NCBI GenBank assembly: GCA_017631855.1
Contig: JAGBSP010000008.1
Span: forward strand, 1-40,709
From: Clostridia bacterium
GTDB lineage: Bacteria; Bacillota; Clostridia; Oscillospirales; CAG-272
Reading direction: 5' to 3'
Length of the DNA: 40,709 bases
In this document: positions 29,806-38,515 of the stretch, in pieces
Layout: each line of letters opens with the position of its first letter
How positions within the stretch are numbered: the first letter of the stretch is position 1
Made by a program: the position numbers and the translations under genes
The notes under the pieces: generated by a model
Told to the model about the DNA's origin: nothing
The model's input: only the letters and a program-made list of their open reading frames with translations
The model's database searches: none

Positions 29806-32436
29806 TTATTTCAGCATTGAAGCGAGAATGGATTCGGATGCGGTGAGCGCTTCTGCGATTTTTGCGCGGTCCTGACCGCCAGCCATCGCGTTGTCGGGAC
29901 GTCCGCCGCCCTTACCGCCCGTGATCTGTGCGACAGCTCCAACAAGCTTACCTGCATGTGCCCCTGCTGCAACAGCATCCTTTCCTGCTACCGCAAGGAA
30001 GTTCAGCTTTTCGGCGCTGTTCAGCGCCAGCACGGCAACAGCATCGGCGGCTCTTGCCTTGATTTCGTCAGCAAGACTGCGTGCAGCGTCGGGCTGCATA
30101 TCCTTGAGCTCTGCCGTGATCAGACGAAGAGAGCCGACCGTCTTTGCGGAAGCCAGAATATCGTCAAGCTTGGTTGCAGCAAGCTTTGCGTTCATTGCCT
30201 CAAGCTCCTTCTTCATTGCGTGGAGCTCTTTCTGCAACTGAGCAGCGCGCTCTGCGATCTCGGAGGATTTTTGCACACGAAGCTCTGTGGCAGTTTTTGC
30301 GATCAGTGCGCCGTTTTCTTCCAAGAGAGCAAGGACAGCCTCACCCGTGACGGCTTCGATACGGCGTACGCCTGCGGCAACCGAAGCCTCAGATACGATC
30401 TTGAAAAGACCGATCTCGGCGGTGTTCGCAAGGTGCGTTCCTCCGCAAAGCTCGACCGATACGTCGCCCATCTTGACGACGCGAACGACCTTGCCGTACT
30501 TTTCTCCAAAGAGAGCCATCGCGCCGAGCTTCTTTGCTTCATCGATGGGCATTTCGTTCATCGTGATCTCGTTTGCCGAGAGAATATATGCGTTGACGAG
30601 CGCCTCGACCTTGGCGATCTCCTCTGCTGTCATTGCGGCAAAGTGCGTGAAGTCAAAGCGGGTGTGGTCAAGGGCAACGTAAGAGCCTGCCTGCTCGACG
30701 TGGTTGCCGAGCACCGTGCGGAGCGCCGCCTGAAGCAGGTGGCACGCCGAGTGTGCACGCATGGTCGCACGGCGGGTCTTTGTTCCGACGGTTGCGGTGA
30801 GGGTATCGCCAACCTTGATGCTTCCCTCGTTCAGCGTGACCTCGTGCAGGTAAACGCCGTCGGTCTTTTTGGTATCGGTAACGGTCAGCGATGCGGTGTC
30901 GGACGCGAGTGTACCCTCGTCACCGATCTGTCCGACGCCTTCTCCGTAGAAGGGGGTCTTATTGAGAACCACCGTTGCATCGCCCTCGGTCAGCACGTCG
31001 ACGTTCTCGCCACCAACGATGATCGCGAGCACCTTTGCTTCGGCAGAAAGCTCGTTGTATCCGCAGAACTCGGTCTTTTCCATCGAGGCGAGCATCTTCT
31101 TAGAGCTCTCGTCCCAACCGCCAATGTTGCCGCGTGCGGCTCTTGCGCGATCCTTCTGCTCCTTCATCAGAGCCGTGAATTTTTCTTCGTCGATCGAAAG
31201 TCCCTTTTCTTCGACGATCTCACGCGTAATGTCAAGCGGGAAGCCGAAGGTGTCGTACAGACGGAAGGCATCCTCGCCCGAAATGACGGTGTTTCCTGCC
31301 TTTTCAGCGTCCTCGATGATCGTAGCGAGGATCGAAAGACCTGCATCGATGGTAGCGTCAAAGCGCTCTTCCTCGGTGGCAATGACCTTCAGAATATATG
31401 CCTTCTTGTCGCCAAGCTCGGGGTATGCACCGATGTTCTCTCCGATGACGACCTCACAGAGCTCGCAAAGGAATGCGCGGTTGATGCCGAGCAGCTTACC
31501 GAAGCGGCAAGCACGGCGCAGAATACGGCGAAGCACGTAGCCGCGTCCTTCGTTGGAAGGAATGACGCCGTCGCAGATCATAAAGGTTGCGCTGCGGATG
31601 TGGTCGGTCACGACGCGGATCGAAATATCGTCCTTGGCGTTCTCGCCGTAGGTCTTGTCCGAAATCGAGCAGACCGTGTTGAGGATTTTGCGGACGGTGT
31701 CGACCTCGAAGAGGTTGTCTACACCCTGCATGACGCAAGCGAGACGCTCAAGTCCCATACCCGTATCGATATTCTTCTGCGCAAGCTCGGTGTAGTTGCC
31801 GTTTCCATCGTTGTTGAACTGCGAGAAGACGTTGTTCCAGATCTCCATAAAGCGGTCGCAGTCGCATCCGGGCTTACAGTCGGGCGAGCCACAGCCGTAC
31901 TTTTCTCCGCGGTCAAAGTAGATCTCGGAGCAGGGACCGCAAGGACCCGAGCCGTGTTCCCAGAAGTTGTCTGCTTTGCCGAGGCGGACGACGTGATTTG
32001 CGGGAACGCCGATTTTCTTGGTCCAGATGTCGTAGGCTTCCTCGTCGTTTTCGTAGATCGAGGGCCAGAGCAGGTCTGCGGGGATCTCGAGCCATTCGGT
32101 TAAGAATTCCCACGCCCACGGAATTGCTTCTTCCTTGAAGTAGTCACCAAAGGAGAAGTTTCCGAGCATTTCAAAATATGTGCCGTGACGTGCGGTGTGA
32201 CCGACACGGTCAAGGTCGGGGGTACGGATGCACTTCTGGCAGGTGGTGACACGGTTGCGGGGAGGAATTTCTTCTCCCGTGAAGTATTTTTTCATCGGTG
32301 CCATTCCCGAGTTGATGAGAAGCAGAGATTTGTCTCCGATGGGAACGAGCGGGAATGAGGGGAGTCTTAAGTGTCCCTTCGACTCAAAAAAGGAAAGATA
32401 TTTTTCGCGAAGATCATTTAAAGAAGTCCATTTCAT
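29806..32436 (-). CDS. alaS: alanyl-tRNA synthetase
   Basis: An 876-residue class II synthetase that charges tRNA(Ala). The ATG at 32436 (MKWTSLNDLREKYLSFFESK) is chosen; a TTG eight codons upstream is open in frame but would lie within the likely ribosome binding site. The N-terminal core has GHLRLPSFPLVP and TCQKCIRTPDLDRVG. The editing domain carries HSACH (H562, H566) and CGGTH (C664, H668), the four zinc ligands of the family. The C-terminal DHHA1-like domain ends with GGKGGGRPDNAMAGG. Full length. It has a perfect sigma-A promoter at 32492-32520, and no T-box leader is seen in the short untranslated region. Confidence 0.97.
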   Translation of the reverse strand: MKWTSLNDLREKYLSFFESKGHLRLPSFPLVPIGDKSLLLINSGMAPMKKYFTGEEIPPRNRVTTCQKCIRTPDLDRVGHTARHGTYFEMLGNFSFGDYFKEEAIPWAWEFLTEWLEIPADLLWPSIYENDEEAYDIWTKKIGVPANHVVRLGKADNFWEHGSGPCGPCSEIYFDRGEKYGCGSPDCKPGCDCDRFMEIWNNVFSQFNNDGNGNYTELAQKNIDTGMGLERLACVMQGVDNLFEVDTVRKILNTVCSISDKTYGENAKDDISIRVVTDHIRSATFMICDGVIPSNEGRGYVLRRILRRACRFGKLLGINRAFLCELCEVVIGENIGAYPELGDKKAYILKVIATEEERFDATIDAGLSILATIIEDAEKAGNTVISGEDAFRLYDTFGFPLDITREIVEEKGLSIDEEKFTALMKEQKDRARAARGNIGGWDESSKKMLASMEKTEFCGYNELSAEAKVLAIIVGGENVDVLTEGDATVVLNKTPFYGEGVGQIGDEGTLASDTASLTVTDTKKTDGVYLHEVTLNEGSIKVGDTLTATVGTKTRRATMRAHSACHLLQAALRTVLGNHVEQAGSYVALDHTRFDFTHFAAMTAEEIAKVEALVNAYILSANEITMNEMPIDEAKKLGAMALFGEKYGKVVRVVKMGDVSVELCGGTHLANTAEIGLFKIVSEASVAAGVRRIEAVTGEAVLALLEENGALIAKTATELRVQKSSEIAERAAQLQKELHAMKKELEAMNAKLAATKLDDILASAKTVGSLRLITAELKDMQPDAARSLADEIKARAADAVAVLALNSAEKLNFLAVAGKDAVAAGAHAGKLVGAVAQITGGKGGGRPDNAMAGGQDRAKIAEALTASESILASMLK

Positions 32437-32491
32437 GGGGGTATATCGCCTTTCTTTCAAAAATAATATAGTAAAAATAAAATATCACTTT

Positions 32492-32520
32492 ATTATACCA
32501 CTCTCCCTTCCATTTGTCAA
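32492..32520 (-). promoter_or_regulatory. sigma-A promoter of alaS
   Basis: On the minus strand TTGACA (32520-32515), a 17-bp spacer and TATAAT (32497-32492), a perfect consensus about 55 bp before the ATG. Confidence 0.9.
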
Positions 32521-32581
32521 TCCTTTTATAAAAAAGTATAAAAAGAGAGTGAAAAGAAGAAAAGGAAGCGAGATATTTTTA

Positions 32582-32610
32582 CACCAAAAGAATTCGGTTT
32601 TCATAAAATA
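32582..32610 (+). promoter_or_regulatory. SigK-type mother-cell promoter of dpaAB
   Basis: CACC at 32582-32585, a 16-bp spacer and CATAAAATA at 32602-32610 fit the SigK consensus mACm-N16/17-CATANNNTA. In B. subtilis the dipicolinate synthase operon (spoVF) is SigK-dependent, which fits this position about 53 bp before dpaA. Confidence 0.65.
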
Positions 32611-32618
32611 CTATCGTA

Positions 32619-32641
32619 GCGGTCGCCGCAAGAGCGGCCGC
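32619..32641 (+). promoter_or_regulatory. GC-rich hairpin at the 5' end of the dpaAB transcript
   Basis: GCGGTCGC (32619-32626) pairs with GCGGCCGC (32634-32641), an 8-bp stem with one G-U pair and a 7-nt loop. It would begin within a few bases of the predicted SigK start site and end before the ribosome binding site AAAGGA (about 32647-32652). It could act as a 5' stabiliser. Confidence 0.45.
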
Positions 32642-32662
32642 AATCGAAAGGACGATAGCACG

Positions 32663-33559
32663 ATGAAACAACAAAAAAAGATCGCAGTTCTCGGGGGAGA
32701 TCTGCGACAGTATATTGCCGCGCGCGAGCTATCCTTGAGCGGTGCATCGGTCGAACTCTGGGGACTTGAGCGCTCGGCAAGAGAGGAGGAAATCCCCGTG
32801 GCACGAAGCCTCGTGTCGGCACTTGAGGGAGCGGACGCCGTGCTCCTTCCTCTTCCCGCTACGACCGACGGAGTATTGCTCTTTTCTCCCTTGGCAATCT
32901 CGGAAAAGCGCATCCGCCTTTGCGACATTTTGTCAGAAATGCCATCGGGTTCGCTTCTGATCGGGGGAAGAATTCCCGAAACCGTCGTTGCGTCTGCCGA
33001 GGCTTCGGGAATTCGGGTACGGGACTATTTCGACTCGGAGGAGTTTCAGATTCAGAACGCCTATACGACGGCAGAGGCGGCGATCAGTATCGCGATGAAC
33101 AGTCTGACGCGAAATCTCCGTGGCGCGCGCGTTGCTGTGACGGGATTTGGACGGATCGCAAAGCATCTTGTACGACTTTTGCTCTCTCTTAGCGCACGTG
33201 TGACGGTTGCGGCACGAAAGAGTGAGGACCTTGCGTGGGCAGAGAGCCTCGGATGCGATACGCTGTTCTTGCGGGAGGGCGTCGTTCCGAGTGAGCTTGC
33301 CCACGGCTATGACGTGATCTACAATACCGTGCCTCATTGGCTCTTCGGTCGGGAATTTCTCTCGATGACAACGAGAGATACCTTCTTGATCGATTTGGCG
33401 TCAGTTCCCGGTGGCGTGGACGTTCTTGCCGCAAAAGAGCTTGGCTCCAACGTGCTCTGGGCGACCTCGCTTCCGGGAAAATACGCGCCGACGAGCGCAG
33501 GTCAGCTGATCGCCGCGTGCGTCGGAAAAATTCTGAGAGAGGAGGTGAGCGGAGAATGA
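32663..33559 (+). CDS. dpaA: dipicolinate synthase subunit A
   Basis: A 298-residue NAD(P)-binding subunit of the enzyme that makes dipicolinic acid from the lysine-pathway precursor in the mother cell; the product fills the spore core. The ATG at 32663 is chosen (MKQQKKIAVLGGDLRQ), with AAAGGA upstream. The N-terminal Rossmann motif IAVLGGD and a second one VAVTGFGRIAKHLVRLL near 155 match SpoVFA. DLASVPGGVD and LPGKYAPTSAGQLIA near the C-terminus are strong family marks. The open frame extends 145 codons upstream into alaS antisense, which is not real coding. It overlaps dpaB by 4 bp (ATGA), so the two are translationally coupled. Confidence 0.94.
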   Translation: MKQQKKIAVLGGDLRQYIAARELSLSGASVELWGLERSAREEEIPVARSLVSALEGADAVLLPLPATTDGVLLFSPLAISEKRIRLCDILSEMPSGSLLIGGRIPETVVASAEASGIRVRDYFDSEEFQIQNAYTTAEAAISIAMNSLTRNLRGARVAVTGFGRIAKHLVRLLLSLSARVTVAARKSEDLAWAESLGCDTLFLREGVVPSELAHGYDVIYNTVPHWLFGREFLSMTTRDTFLIDLASVPGGVDVLAAKELGSNVLWATSLPGKYAPTSAGQLIAACVGKILREEVSGE

Positions 33560-34116
33560 TTGGATTTGCGATGTGCGGCTCGTACTGCACACACGCGTTG
33601 GCACTCCAACAGTTAATCTCGCTTCGCGAGAGAGGTCTTGAAATTCAGCCGATGATGAGCGAGAACGTATACGCGACCGATACGCAGTTTGGAAGCGCCG
33701 AGGAGCTCCGTCGGAAGGTGAGGGAGATTTGCGATCGAGAGATCATTCATACGGTGGTGGGGGCAGAGCCACTCGGACCGAGAACGCCGCTCGACGCGCT
33801 TCTGCTTTGTCCTTGTACGGGAAATACCTTGGCAAAAATGGCACTTGGCATTACCGATACGGCGGTGACGATGGCGGCAAAGGCGCATCTACGGAGCGAC
33901 CGTCCGCTCGTGATTTGCCTTGCGTCAAACGATGCGCTTTCGGCAAATCTCAAAAATATTGGACTGCTGCTTTCCCGCAAGTGCGTGTATTTTGTGCCGA
34001 TGAGACAGGACGATCCCGAAAAGAAGCCACATTCGCTTGTGGCGGATTTTTCGCTTTTGATCCCTACGCTCGACAGCGCGATGCAGGGAAAACAGTATCA
34101 GAAAATTTTTGTGTAG
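33556..34116 (+). CDS. dpaB: dipicolinate synthase subunit B
   Basis: A 186-residue flavoprotein-like subunit (SpoVFB) that works with DpaA. It begins MIGFAMCGSYCTHALALQQL and contains LLLCPCTGNTLAKMALGITD, VTMAAKAHLRS and RPLVICLASNDALSAN, all typical of the flavoprotein (HFCD) fold in SpoVFB. The ATG overlaps the dpaA stop as ATGA, with GGAGGTGAGCGGAG just upstream. It is the last gene of the dpaAB unit and is followed by several hairpins and repeat modules before convergent sigG. Confidence 0.94.
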   Translation: MIGFAMCGSYCTHALALQQLISLRERGLEIQPMMSENVYATDTQFGSAEELRRKVREICDREIIHTVVGAEPLGPRTPLDALLLCPCTGNTLAKMALGITDTAVTMAAKAHLRSDRPLVICLASNDALSANLKNIGLLLSRKCVYFVPMRQDDPEKKPHSLVADFSLLIPTLDSAMQGKQYQKIFV

Positions 34117-34372: not shown

Positions 34373-35149
34373 TTACTCGATCTGTTTCCTCATTCTCTCG
34401 AGGGCGCCTTTTTCGAGGCGGGAGACCTGTGCTTGGGAGATACCGATCTCCTCGGCGATTTCCATTTGAGTTTTGTTTTTATAATAACGGAGCTGAATGA
34501 TGGTACGTTCTCTTTCTCCAAGGCAATTCATTGCTTCGCGCAGGACGATGTTTTCGAGCCAAAGCTCGTCCGAGCTGTTCGAGTCGCTGAGCTGATCCAT
34601 CACGTAGATCGAATCGCCGTTTTCGCTGAACACGGGTTCATAGAGCGAGATTGGCTCGACGATGGCTTCCATTGCCCGAACCACGGCTTCCTTTTTTTCG
34701 CCGAGCCGTTTGGCAATCTCTTCGGCATCGGGTTCTCGCTCCATCTCACGAATAAATTCTTCCTTGGCTTGCAGGGCTCGATAGGCAAGATCACGCACCG
34801 AGCGGCTGATGCGGATGGAATTATTGTCGCGCAGATAGCGGCGGATTTCGCCGATGATCATAGGGACGGCGTAGGTGGAGAATTTCACGTCGAGGTCGGT
34901 ATTAAAATGGTCGACCGCCTTGCAAAGACCGATGCAACCTACCTGAAAGAGGTCGTCGAGATTTTCCTTTCGTCCCGTAAAGCGTTGCACGATGCTTAGA
35001 ACGAGGCGGAGATTTCCGTAGATCAGCTCTTGCCGCGCGCCCTCGTCTCCCTTTTTGACGCGAAGCAGAAGTTCGCGCTTTTCTTCATCGGTCAGCACTA
35101 CGAGATTCGAAGTGTTGACTCCGCAGATTTCCACTTTGTTATAGTACAT
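34373..35149 (-). CDS. sigG: RNA polymerase sporulation sigma factor SigG
   Basis: A 258-residue sigma-70 family protein that directs late forespore transcription. The ATG at 35149 is chosen because MYYNKVEICGVNTSNL aligns with the N-terminus of known SigG proteins, and GGGAG lies upstream. An in-frame extension to 35215 is not expected. Region 2 reads NLRLVLSIVQRFTGRKENL and DDLFQVGCIGLCKAVDHF, then KFSTYAVPMIIGEIRRYLRD, which is nearly invariant in SigG/SigF. Region 4 has KTQMEIAEEIGISQAQVSRL. EICGV(N/D)T at the start separates it from SigF. It lies behind an ABC importer operon rather than the spoIIG locus seen in Bacillus. A hairpin covers its ribosome binding site. Confidence 0.96.
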   Translation of the reverse strand: MYYNKVEICGVNTSNLVVLTDEEKRELLLRVKKGDEGARQELIYGNLRLVLSIVQRFTGRKENLDDLFQVGCIGLCKAVDHFNTDLDVKFSTYAVPMIIGEIRRYLRDNNSIRISRSVRDLAYRALQAKEEFIREMEREPDAEEIAKRLGEKKEAVVRAMEAIVEPISLYEPVFSENGDSIYVMDQLSDSNSSDELWLENIVLREAMNCLGERERTIIQLRYYKNKTQMEIAEEIGISQAQVSRLEKGALERMRKQIE

Positions 35150-35152
35150 AAA

Positions 35153-35189
35153 AATACTCCCGATACGAAATTTTTGTATCGGGAGTATT
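35153..35189 (-). promoter_or_regulatory. hairpin sequestering the sigG ribosome binding site
   Basis: A 14-bp perfect stem AATACTCCCGATAC/GTATCGGGAGTATT (35153-35166 and 35176-35189, 9-nt loop). On the minus strand the 3' arm contains the ribosome binding site GGGAG and is followed directly by TTT and the ATG. It can act as a terminator for the upstream ABC operon and as a translational block on read-through RNA. A weak SigG/SigF-like box (GAATA at 35213-35209, AATACTC at 35189-35183, spacer 19) overlaps the 5' arm. Confidence 0.65.
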
Positions 35190-35207
35190 GACTTTGTGTT
35201 GGGGAAA

Positions 35208-35825
35208 TTATTCATTTTCGGCTCTGCCGCTTTTTTCCAACATCAAACGGAAAACAGGTGTACCCTCCATCCGCACAATTTCGTCGCAGAGAGCAAGATC
35301 AGCTTGCTCGTGTGTGACAAAAAGGAGTGTCTTTCCTTTCGTTTCCTCTAAAATCAGTCGTGCCGCTATTTCTTTTGCTTCGGTGTCAAGACCTCGGAAG
35401 GGCTCGTCCAAGAGAAGCAGATCGGGAGCATAGGCAAGTGCTCGTGCGATCGAGATACGCTGCTTCATTCCGCCGGAAAGTTCGTGCGGATGCTTTTTTG
35501 CAACCTCTTCGGCATCGTCAAAGAGAATGCGAAGATAGCGCATCGCGGTTTCCTCGTTCGCGCCGACGGTGGTGATATTTTCCAGCGCCGTCATCCAAGG
35601 AAAGAGGCGAGGCTCTTGGAAAATATAGGAAAGCCGCTCGTGCGAGGAACGAATTTTTCCGTCGCTTATCGTCGTCAGACCTGCGATTGCATGCAGTAGA
35701 GAGCTTTTTCCAATGCCCGACGCGCCGACGATCCCTGTGATGCCACCCGTGAGAAATTCAAAGCTAACGCCGTCGAGTACGGTCTGCTTGCCGTAGCGTA
35801 GCGTTATGTGTTCAAGTGTCAGCAT
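35208..35825 (-). CDS. ABC transporter ATP-binding protein, nitrate/sulfonate/taurine type
   Basis: A 205-residue ATPase that powers the importer made with the permease and binding protein upstream. Walker A is GASGIGKSS near residue 35, the Q-loop is FQEPRLFPW, the signature is LSGGMKQR near 116, Walker B is LLLLDEP and the switch His is in FVTHEQ. The Q-loop sequence QEPRLFPW is typical of the SsuB/TauB/ThiZ group. It is shorter than usual (about 240-260) at the C-terminus. Its start overlaps the permease end by 14 bp, so the two are translationally coupled. The substrate is unknown. Confidence 0.92.
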   Translation of the reverse strand: MLTLEHITLRYGKQTVLDGVSFEFLTGGITGIVGASGIGKSSLLHAIAGLTTISDGKIRSSHERLSYIFQEPRLFPWMTALENITTVGANEETAMRYLRILFDDAEEVAKKHPHELSGGMKQRISIARALAYAPDLLLLDEPFRGLDTEAKEIAARLILEETKGKTLLFVTHEQADLALCDEIVRMEGTPVFRLMLEKSGRAENE

Positions 35826-36639
35826 CGTTCTCTCCTTTCGGTAGCATTCGGAATTTTTGTCCGAGCCGTCTTAGCGCAAAAAGGAAACATGTTTCGATGA
35901 TCAAGCTCAGCACGATCACCACAAGCGTCCACGCAAAGAGGGTTTCGGGAAGCATATATTGCTTGGAGAGAAAGATCTCGGTGCCAATCGAGTGTTGCGG
36001 AACAGCGAGGATCTCCGCCGCAACGCTTGCCTTCCACGCCATACCGAGCGCCGATTGGCAGGCGGCGAAGAAGTAGGGAGCCACGGTGGGAAAATAGAGA
36101 CGCATCACACGTTTCCCGAGAGAAAATCGGTATACGGTCGCCACCTCGCGAAGATTGGGATCAACCGCGCGAATTCCCTCCGAAACGTTTGCCCAGACGA
36201 TGGGAACGACGATGAGCGCCGTAATAAAGACTGGAAGGACCGATTTATCAAGCCAAAGCATTGCCAGAATGATAAAGGATGCGACGGGGGTCGCCTTGAT
36301 TGCCGTGAGGGCGGGGGAGAGCAGTGTGTGAAGCAGACGGGAAATGCTTGTCAGATAAGCGACAAGACAGCCGATGATCAGCGAAACGAGCACGCCCCAG
36401 ACAACACGGAGCAGAGAAACGAGCGTAATGTGCCAAAAGCTGTACTGCACGCCGTAGCGATAAAGGCTTTCGCTTCGTTCGGTCACGAGCAGCCAAAGTT
36501 CGGAAAAGACAGCTTTGGGCGTCGGAAAGACGAGGTCAATACCGATCCGTGCCGAGAGAAAATACCAAAGAACGCTCCAAAAGGCAATCACCAGCAGTGC
36601 TTTGCCAAACGCGATGGCAATTTTTTTCACAAGCTGCAT
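35812..36639 (-). CDS. ABC transporter permease, SsuC/TauC/ThiX type
   Basis: A 275-residue membrane protein with about six hydrophobic segments and the BPD_transp_1 layout. It starts with a transmembrane helix (FGKALLVIAFWSVLWYFLSA) and FPTPKAVFSELW, common in nitrate/sulfonate/taurine permeases. The EAA-type loop is EVATVYRFSLGKRVMRLYFP near residues 165-190. AAAGGAG lies before the ATG. It is the middle gene of the importer, 52 bp after the binding protein gene and overlapping the ATPase gene. The ligand cannot be told from the sequence. Confidence 0.92.
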   Translation of the reverse strand: MQLVKKIAIAFGKALLVIAFWSVLWYFLSARIGIDLVFPTPKAVFSELWLLVTERSESLYRYGVQYSFWHITLVSLLRVVWGVLVSLIIGCLVAYLTSISRLLHTLLSPALTAIKATPVASFIILAMLWLDKSVLPVFITALIVVPIVWANVSEGIRAVDPNLREVATVYRFSLGKRVMRLYFPTVAPYFFAACQSALGMAWKASVAAEILAVPQHSIGTEIFLSKQYMLPETLFAWTLVVIVLSLIIETCFLFALRRLGQKFRMLPKGENDADT

Positions 36640-36691: not shown

Positions 36692-37798
36692 TTATTTCTT
36701 CGTGTTTGCTTGGGTCAGGGCAACGGTGACCTTAGGCTCGGGGAGTACGGCAAGCTCGATCGCACCCGTAGCAAAGGCGGTGGCAAGCGCGTCGGGCGTC
36801 GAATAGGTGGTAGTGTCGATCGTTACGTCAGAGCCGATCACAAGTCCTGCCGCTTGCAGAAGAGCTACCGTGATATATTCGGGGTTAGCACCGGCACCGG
36901 GAACGTAGATCGTCTTACCCTTGAGGTCATCGAGTGAATCGATTGCGGGATAGCCCGCGCCCTGCAAGAGATAGAGCACACCGAGGGTATTGAGCGCGAG
37001 AAGCTGGATCTTACCCTGTGCGTTGAAGAGCTTTGCGGCAACGTTGGTGGGGAGCGCCGCGATCTTGCATTCGCCGTTCTGGATCGCACCGACGATTGCG
37101 GTTGCGTCTGCATGGAGCGAGATATTATAATTCATATCGTCGGTTCCACCCTTCGAGTTGACGATCATTTCCGCCATACCGAGCGCCGTCGTTCCATTGA
37201 GCGCATAGACCTTGATTTCAAGATCGGAGTCAGCCGCAGCTGCATCTCCGTCTGCCGAATAATAGAAATCGTCCGGGGGGAGCTTGCCGCCGATCGACTT
37301 GGGATCGACCGCCTTGATCTTTTCGCAGAATGCGTTCATCACGGGCTTCATATCATTGCCTGCAAAATAGCAGAGATTGCAGTTGGGCAGAGCTTTTTGC
37401 GCAATGGGCGCTTTGGGAAGAATACCTGCGCTGACGATGAGGTTTACGGCATTCTCGCCGCCCGCCTTGATCGTGTTGACCGAAGCGGAGTAGTCCTCGA
37501 GAAACTTCGCAAGTTCGTTCGGATGACTCTCGGCAAACTCACGGTTGACTACAAGACAGCCCTGCACGAGCGTGTTGTCGCCGTACAGCGTTTCCCATTC
37601 GGCGGTCATATTGATGGCAACGCCTGCTTCGGTGGTCTTTTTCGAGCCTCCGTTCGTTTCCTCCTCGTTGTCCGAGGAAGCGCCGCCGTCGGTCTCCGTG
37701 CCGTTTTGTGCCGCGGGAGCGCAGGCGAAAAGGGCAACGGGAAGGATCATCAAAAGCGCTAAGGTCAGCGCAATGAGTTTGAGAATAGAGTGTTTCAT
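36692..37798 (-). CDS. ABC transporter solute-binding lipoprotein, apparently circularly permuted
   Basis: A 368-residue lipoprotein. The signal peptide ends in the lipobox LFAC with Cys26, then a Gly/Ser/Glu/Asn linker to about residue 55. Residues 59-181 (AGVAINMTAEWETLYGDNTL, NREFAESHPNELAKFLEDY, AGILPKAPIAQKALPNCN, KSIGGKLPPDDFYY) are what is normally the C-terminal half of this NMT1/SsuA-like family. After a short linker (SADGDAAAADSD), residues 193-368 (EIKVYALNGTTALGM, LPTNVAAKLFN, LNTLGVLYLLQ, DLKGKTIYVPGAGANPEYIT, VLPEPKVTVALTQANTKK) are what is normally the N-terminal half. The two halves are therefore swapped, in one unbroken frame. It should deliver an unknown small ligand to the permease. 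Confidence 0.85.
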   Translation of the reverse strand: MKHSILKLIALTLALLMILPVALFACAPAAQNGTETDGGASSDNEEETNGGSKKTTEAGVAINMTAEWETLYGDNTLVQGCLVVNREFAESHPNELAKFLEDYSASVNTIKAGGENAVNLIVSAGILPKAPIAQKALPNCNLCYFAGNDMKPVMNAFCEKIKAVDPKSIGGKLPPDDFYYSADGDAAAADSDLEIKVYALNGTTALGMAEMIVNSKGGTDDMNYNISLHADATAIVGAIQNGECKIAALPTNVAAKLFNAQGKIQLLALNTLGVLYLLQGAGYPAIDSLDDLKGKTIYVPGAGANPEYITVALLQAAGLVIGSDVTIDTTTYSTPDALATAFATGAIELAVLPEPKVTVALTQANTKK

Positions 37799-37828: not shown

Positions 37829-38494
37829 TTATATCAAGCGCAAAAGTGCGTCTTTGTTTTGGAGAAGAATGGTTTTTCCTTGCTTTTCGATCAGTCCCTC
37901 ATCGCAGAGAGCGTCGATGGCGCGGTAGAGTGAGGCTCGTCCCATTCCGAGCAGTTCGGCAAGGCGGCTCATCGGGCAGGGAGGGATGAAGATGCCGTCC
38001 TGTTCGTAATCAAGAAGAAAAACGGCAAGCTTCTTTTCGGCACTTCCCGCCGTCAGCGTCGTGATCTTTCGGTTGAGATAGACAATCTTTCGGCTCTGGA
38101 AGGCAAGATAGTTTTTGAGGATTTCGGGCTCTCCCTCGATCAGTTTCTTTACGGCGTCCCCGTCAAGAAAAAGAATTTTCGCGGGCGAGGTTGTGACGAT
38201 CGACGTCGGAAACGGTTCGTCCTCGGCATAGAGATTGGCAATGCCGAAAAGCTCTCCGCTGCGGAGTGATTTGACGAGTGCCTGCGCGTCGGTTTCCACA
38301 CGCGCCTTGCCCGAAAGCAGAATTCCGATGCGGACGCGTTCGGTCGACGGGGAATATGCGACCTCGTGCACACCAAAGGAAACAATCTCGCAAGTGCCGC
38401 CCGAAAAATATCGGACCACGGCGGAGGGGGTCAGCGAGGCAAAGACGGGATGCGCCCGAAGAATCGAAAGCAATTCGGTTGAGTTTGGGATCAT
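37829..38494 (-). CDS. Crp/Fnr-family transcriptional regulator
   Basis: A 221-residue regulator. The ATG at 38494 is chosen (MIPNSTELLSILRAHPVFAS) because AGGAGG lies about 10 nt upstream; a TTG six codons earlier is also in frame. Residues ~15-130 form a cyclic-nucleotide-binding-like beta-roll (GILLSGKARVETDAQ, SGELFGIANLYAEDEPF). Residues ~150-221 form a winged helix-turn-helix (PMSRLAELLGMGRASLYRAI). It lacks the cysteine set of Fnr iron-sulfur sensors. It heads the minus-strand unit with the ABC importer (30 bp to the binding protein gene) and probably regulates it (inference). A 16-bp inverted repeat lies at the transcription start. Confidence 0.9.
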   Translation of the reverse strand: MIPNSTELLSILRAHPVFASLTPSAVVRYFSGGTCEIVSFGVHEVAYSPSTERVRIGILLSGKARVETDAQALVKSLRSGELFGIANLYAEDEPFPTSIVTTSPAKILFLDGDAVKKLIEGEPEILKNYLAFQSRKIVYLNRKITTLTAGSAEKKLAVFLLDYEQDGIFIPPCPMSRLAELLGMGRASLYRAIDALCDEGLIEKQGKTILLQNKDALLRLI

Positions 38495-38515
38495 GGACAG
38501 TATATCCTCCAAAAG

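Follow-up and report, generated by a model that had tools for sequence, protein, structure and literature searches.

How did one gene come to encode the two halves of a solute-binding protein in reverse order? The question is raised by sbp, an open reading frame in a 40,709-nt window, the whole stretch of DNA analysed here, from a Clostridia bacterium of the CAG-272 lineage (Oscillospirales; assembly GCA_017631855.1, contig JAGBSP010000008.1). An earlier note, drawn from the sequence alone, had proposed a natural circular permutation arising through tandem duplication and trimming. Most natural circular permutations have come to light through the comparison of distant proteins, and for this reason their origin and the selection acting on them are hard to test.

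A solute-binding lipoprotein with its halves in swapped order

The frame is unbroken and opens with a signal peptide, as the earlier note had stated (Table 1). Half-specific profile HMMs placed the two moved parts at residues 60-180 (HMM B, positions 1-121 of 121) and 191-364 (HMM A, positions 2-172 of 172), close to the borders first proposed by eye (59-181 and 193-368). Leader and tether stay in front, with only the mature body permuted. The lipobox-like cysteine, C26, is invariant in the alignment of all 14 permuted proteins that share the window protein's breakpoint (P1, see below).

Table 1. Features of the sbp locus (positions in the window; residues of the 368-aa protein)
Feature	Position	Strand	Evidence or remark
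CRP/FNR-type regulator, gene before sbp	37829..38512	-	PF13545, PF00027
sbp ORF, circularly permuted, predicted solute-binding lipoprotein	36692..37798	-	368 aa, ATG start, unbroken frame
Signal peptide, residues 1-25, retained N-terminally	37724..37798	-	Hydrophobic leader ...ALFA before C26, by eye
Lipobox-like Cys26 and low-complexity tether, residues 26-58	37625..37723	-	Sequence (Cys by eye), alignment
Block B, residues 59-180, native C-terminal part (VAINMTAEW ... LPPDDFYY), now first	37259..37624	-	
New internal linker SADGDAAAAD, residues 181-190	37229..37258	-	Joins native C-terminus (FYY) to native N-terminus (DLEIKVY)
Block A, residues 191-364, native N-terminal part (SDLEIKVYALNGTT ... 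LPEPKVTVALTQA), now last	36707..37228	-	
New C-terminal tail NTKK and stop	36692..36706	-	Opened loop, breakpoint P1
ABC transporter permease	35812..36639	-	PF00528
ABC transporter ATPase	35208..35825	-	PF00005

A phmmer search of the PDB with the window protein returned one chain, 3hn0_A, in two stretches of swapped order: residues 192-363 aligned with chain positions 4-160, and residues 117-178 with positions 217-278. A 14-row profile of permutants gave the same swap (profile positions 180-349 on 3hn0_A 4-160 and 87-166 on 199-278; chain E-value 6e-23). Chance is excluded as the source of this swapped match.

With respect to family membership, the NMT1 profile PF09084 matched above its cut-off (22.3 versus 20.5 bits), the match covering residues 284-340 only, and the partner genes that mark NMT1/SsuA-like proteins, a PF00528 permease and a PF00005 ATPase, lie next door. 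The aliphatic sulfonate model TIGR01728 (SsuA) scored the window protein at 45 bits against a curated cut-off of 163.5, which a native-order sister also missed (51.8 bits). As these Pfam and curated-model matches illustrate, order-dependent profiles detect only part of permuted proteins. Among the 15 PDB matches of the permutant profile there were no sugar-binding chains, which, as far as sequence can tell, sets the protein apart from the 'Type Ic' class of TpMglB-2; we take the latter to be a permuted type I sugar-binding fold, as against the NMT1/SsuA-like protein here. An Rfam scan of the window matched no riboswitch that could serve as a clue to the ligand. A reading of the window as a defence system was also dropped, no match having been found.

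Similarity to the selenoprotein-associated SaoB/SaoP ABC transporter is weak and far below the curated cut-offs, both for the window protein against SaoB (12.5 bits, cut-off 140) and for the adjacent permease against the Sao model (53.9 bits, cut-off 295). The match to SaoB, a family annotated with a Cys-Sec motif, covers the region of C81 (window positions 37556-37558, minus strand), a cysteine of the motif LVQGC that all 100 native and all 16 permuted rows share. C81 might point towards a thiol- or metal-related ligand.

Permuted and native orthologues within the same genera

Compared separately with homologues, the two halves are swapped in the window protein and in native order in sister genes, and native-order orthologues from the same genus share 52-70% identity with it per half. 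Two homologous halves, swapped within one frame and matching 3hn0 in that swapped order, alongside native-order orthologues in related organisms, bear out the natural circular permutation that had been proposed. The earlier note had set against its own reading the case of a swapped order common to the whole family. This case does not hold: in the window's genus (g1), where 18 of 30 genomes match, five genes are collinear with the window protein (its own included) and 13 are in native order.

A draw of genomes from the family (260 of 395 matching) revealed further permuted genes in six other genera, bringing the tally to 16 permuted genomes in seven genera of one family. These are g28 (17 of 29 genomes match; two permuted, 15 native), g29 (26 of 35; three permuted, 20 native, three partial or leader-only), g23 (49 of 69; three permuted, one half only in G422, a leader-like match in G430, and the others native by their listed coordinates), g37 (16 of 21; one permuted, 14 native, one fragment), g32 (all six; one permuted, four native, one leader-only) and g19 (two of four; one permuted, one native). 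A second family search matched 249 of 394 genomes at 1e-10, ten of them collinear with the window protein. Scoring all loci with the half-specific HMMs yielded 156 distinct sbp frames: 137 native (111 in the family, 26 outside it), 14 permuted at breakpoint P1, two permuted at a second breakpoint, P2, and three comprising a single half.

At wider taxonomic range, an order search matched 206 of 394 genomes at 1e-10 (29 in this family, 177 in other families) and a class search 110 of 391. Among the matches listed, which reach about 2e-48 and 4e-36, respectively, no permuted sbp came from outside the family; the full-length collinear ones were G000, G005 and G051, all of this family, in the order search, and the window genome alone in the class search. 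Genomes with one weak match each were left unassigned, namely G545, G589, G805 and G814 in the order search, G187 and G292 in the second family search, and twelve in the class search. Because no permuted match is listed from other families and all 26 loci taken from outside the family are in native order, we consider the native order to be ancestral.

A shared gene neighbourhood

We compared the surroundings of 40 loci, 15 permuted and 25 native. The permease gene adjoins sbp in all 40, a CRP match precedes it in 39 (in the exception, L238, the contig begins at sbp), and an ATPase match follows the permease in 37 (absent in L034, where the contig ends, and in L205 and L217). Genes for GalE and a nucleotidyltransferase often lie upstream. 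Permuted and native genes hence occupy the same crp-sbp-permease-ATPase context. A single sbp gene was found in each permuted genome, no analysed locus contained a second sbp frame, and tblastn searches of the DNA flanking the 16 permuted genes, at most about 1.5 kb on either side, returned no sbp remnants.

As a control, the ORFs reaching 150 aa or more in the window and the 40 neighbourhoods, 1050 in total, were compared all against all. This returned 407 swapped pairs, of which 384 were sbp-sbp and the remaining 23 involved antisense frames overlying sbp. With no other gene pair swapping, permutation as a general trait of these neighbourhoods is ruled out. We conclude that sbp very probably is the lipid-anchored type II solute-binding protein of an SsuA/NMT1-like ABC importer (crp-sbp-permease-ATPase), circularly permuted in place. 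Its product probably catches a nutrient for import.

Three further observations concern the genomes and the window at large. A few genomes of the family have three or four matches (e.g. G209 and G358); in G209, of genus g40, the sbp frame of locus L038 on contig C125 is identical to that of L007 from g1, while another copy lies on contig C58, and the C125 copy is probably contamination or a recent transfer. Beside the transporter genes lie genes for a DpaA-like dipicolinate synthase, a flavoprotein and a sigma-70-type factor (window positions 32228-34116, plus strand, and 34373-35215, minus strand), neighbours that suggest a spore former. A 715-aa open frame at positions 29956-32103 (plus strand), antisense to alanyl-tRNA synthetase, is probably a codon-usage shadow.

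Recurrence of the permutation

To place the permuted genes among their relatives, we used a quick maximum-likelihood tree, with no bootstrap and long end branches, of 116 genes arranged in native order (16 permuted and 100 native, each represented by one frame). Left out were L031, L032 and L038, whose frames equal those of L002, L005 and L007, as well as the single-half loci L106, L135 and L157 and leader-only loci; partial frames such as L017, L117 and L153 were retained.

Each of the seven permutant-bearing genera formed one group (SH-aLRT 84-100), the grouping of g19 resting on two rows. Amino-acid identity per half was 49-82% between permutants and native sisters of their own genus (20 of 30 chosen pairs) and 35-65% between permutants of different genera (eight of 30); as these ranges overlap, the tree decides on grouping. 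Separate trees of the A and B halves left the genus groups unchanged (SH-aLRT for g32 only 72 in the B half), implying that the two halves travelled together and ruling out a domain swap between different genes.

The order label required 11 changes by parsimony on the 116-sequence tree, 11 on the A-half tree and ten on the B-half tree. Forcing all 16 permutants into one clade cost 852 log-likelihood units and was rejected (p = 7e-45), as was a single clade of the three g23 permutants (p = 9e-5), so that a single origin of the permutation is ruled out both overall and within g23. Joining L039 and L083 of g23 (p = 0.18), or the three g29 permutants (p = 0.34), was compatible with the data. Counting a single event for each genus and another in g23 for P2 gives a conservative total of eight. 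It therefore seems that the order changed independently at least eight times on the conservative count and 11 times by parsimony, the exact number being uncertain.

Breakpoints, junctions and selection

Two breakpoints are in use. P1, found in 14 of the 16 permutants, is the loop just after the segment carrying the LPEP motif; P2 lies about 40 residues before it and occurs in two genes (L040:1504-2517 in g37 and L085:1231-2283 in g23), in which a further stretch, roughly A-positions 132-171, has been carried to the front as well. In the 16 permuted proteins, a linker of 8-11 residues connects FYY to the native first strand. In 20 native proteins compared, the chain ends 2-3 residues past the FYY-like end, and the loop between the LPEP-containing segment and VAxDLTxEW measures 4-10 residues; the 14 P1 forms have a tail of 0-8 residues beyond the opened loop. 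The last linker residues resemble the native tether, for instance ADSALEMK in L003 versus PDSELEMK in L006. Linker and tail would fit an in-frame duplication followed by trimming. Permutants and native sisters share only 55-75% nucleotide identity, and for this reason scars at the junctions are not expected to have survived.

The coding sequences bear marks of constraint. Estimates of dN/dS were 0.07 and 0.13 in two permuted pairs, dS being saturated in two of four, and 0.02-0.09 in three native pairs. At 31 columns conserved in native proteins, the residue was retained in 98.6% of cases in permutants and 97.8% in native proteins. Low dN/dS together with the retention of conserved columns suggests that the permuted proteins work.

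How the order may have changed

As the sequences show, leader and tether were kept N-terminal, the native termini were closed by the 8-11-residue linker, and the chain was opened at P1 or P2. Probably the gene was first duplicated in tandem and in frame, after which the leading N-part and the trailing C-part were lost. Thus, of the original proposal, the natural permutation stands, whereas the duplication route is plausible but unproven: none of the 156 distinct frames is a duplicated or partly trimmed intermediate. The permuted protein would keep the two-lobed flytrap, the same ligand and the same permease. From the anatomy of type II proteins as we assume it, both breakpoints should place the new termini in lobe 2, so that the lipid anchor would hold lobe 2 instead of lobe 1. 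If the native termini are near enough for a short linker and the loops of lobe 2 tolerate opening, permutants would be near-neutral or mildly favoured.

Selection may have had a larger part. An adaptive relocation of the tether, in which the shift of the anchor from lobe 1 to lobe 2 was itself selected and changes docking to the permease, would be compatible with the proposed route and add to it; in all 16 permutants, at both breakpoints, the new N-terminus falls in what should be lobe 2. A tethering adaptation has likewise been proposed for the permuted TpMglB-2, in the part of that report available to us (PMC4990184). Yet the same genera also contain native-order sisters whose leaders are similar, the loops of lobe 2 may merely be tolerant sites, and the lobe assignment is itself derived from assumed anatomy; on balance we regard such selection as rather unlikely.

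Alternatively, the halves could have become separate genes that later rejoined in the other order. Fission and fusion is a known route in other proteins, according to the accessible sections of PMC3320104, but we found no split sbp: the only three single-half frames each reach or come near a contig end, and block B on its own would have been without a leader. This makes fission and fusion improbable here. More doubtful still is that the permutation took place once, long ago, and reached its present scatter by horizontal transfer or because an ancient pair of paralogues, one in each order, was lost differentially. That 14 of the 16 permutants share P1 speaks for it, but it is strongly contradicted by the rejected one-clade constraint, by the nesting of each permutant in its own genus for both halves separately, by the lack of two sbp frames at any analysed locus, by the common gene neighbourhood and by the use of two breakpoints; we consider it very improbable. 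Finally, an assembly or binning artefact that swapped the halves, which the earlier note had allowed for, is practically excluded: although the genomes are drafts (that of the window being 85.5% complete in 67 contigs), the same order recurs in five g1 genomes and in 11 from six other genera, each time in an unbroken frame whose linker is in frame, the contigs bearing ten of the 16 permuted genes measure 40-444 kb (those of the other six 3-28 kb), and no other neighbouring gene is affected.

Repeated permutation in place, probably by duplication and trimming, is the reading that we retain. More tentatively, the order of the chain may be evolutionarily labile, one orthologue having been permuted eight to 11 times, with two loops of one lobe as the preferred sites, either through a benefit of opening the chain there and shifting the lipid anchor to lobe 2 or through a mutational process specific to this gene. 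We hold this broader view to be a serious possibility, short of probable.

Comparison with known systems

The closest solved relative by sequence, matching both halves, is 3hn0, a 'nitrate transport protein' in native order. As for permuted relatives, permutation among binding proteins has precedents. TpMglB-2 (Tp0684) is likewise a naturally permuted, lipid-tethered ABC-type binding protein; the available part of its description presents it as glucose-binding and as a proposed 'Type Ic', a divergent subclass in which the relocated part shares 13% identity with its E. coli counterpart (PMC4990184). Here, in contrast, several separate events are seen and native sisters lie close by. Glycine betaine- and molybdate-binding proteins are likewise permuted relative to each other; this case, to judge by the accessible text on CPSARST, was found by structure at below 24% identity (PMC2395249), as opposed to permutation within genera at one orthologous locus. 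The DNA methyltransferases, too, are permuted within one family, which has been explained by duplication with documented intermediates (PMC3320104, as far as that source was available); they are enzymes, and sbp differs from them in that intermediates were not found.

While natural permutation of binding proteins is thus already known, its repetition in one orthologue, in place and within genera, is the new part: in the literature searched, those portions of open-licence texts open to us, no repeated in-place circular permutation of one binding-protein orthologue was found. Set against these precedents, permuted and native sbp orthologues coexist within genera and in the same neighbourhood, their halves being as much as about 80% identical. 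The permutation is replicated in at least eight events and uses two breakpoints, which provides naturally matched pairs on which fold, binding, anchoring and mechanism can be tested and makes the sbp family well suited to the study of how protein chains are rewired.
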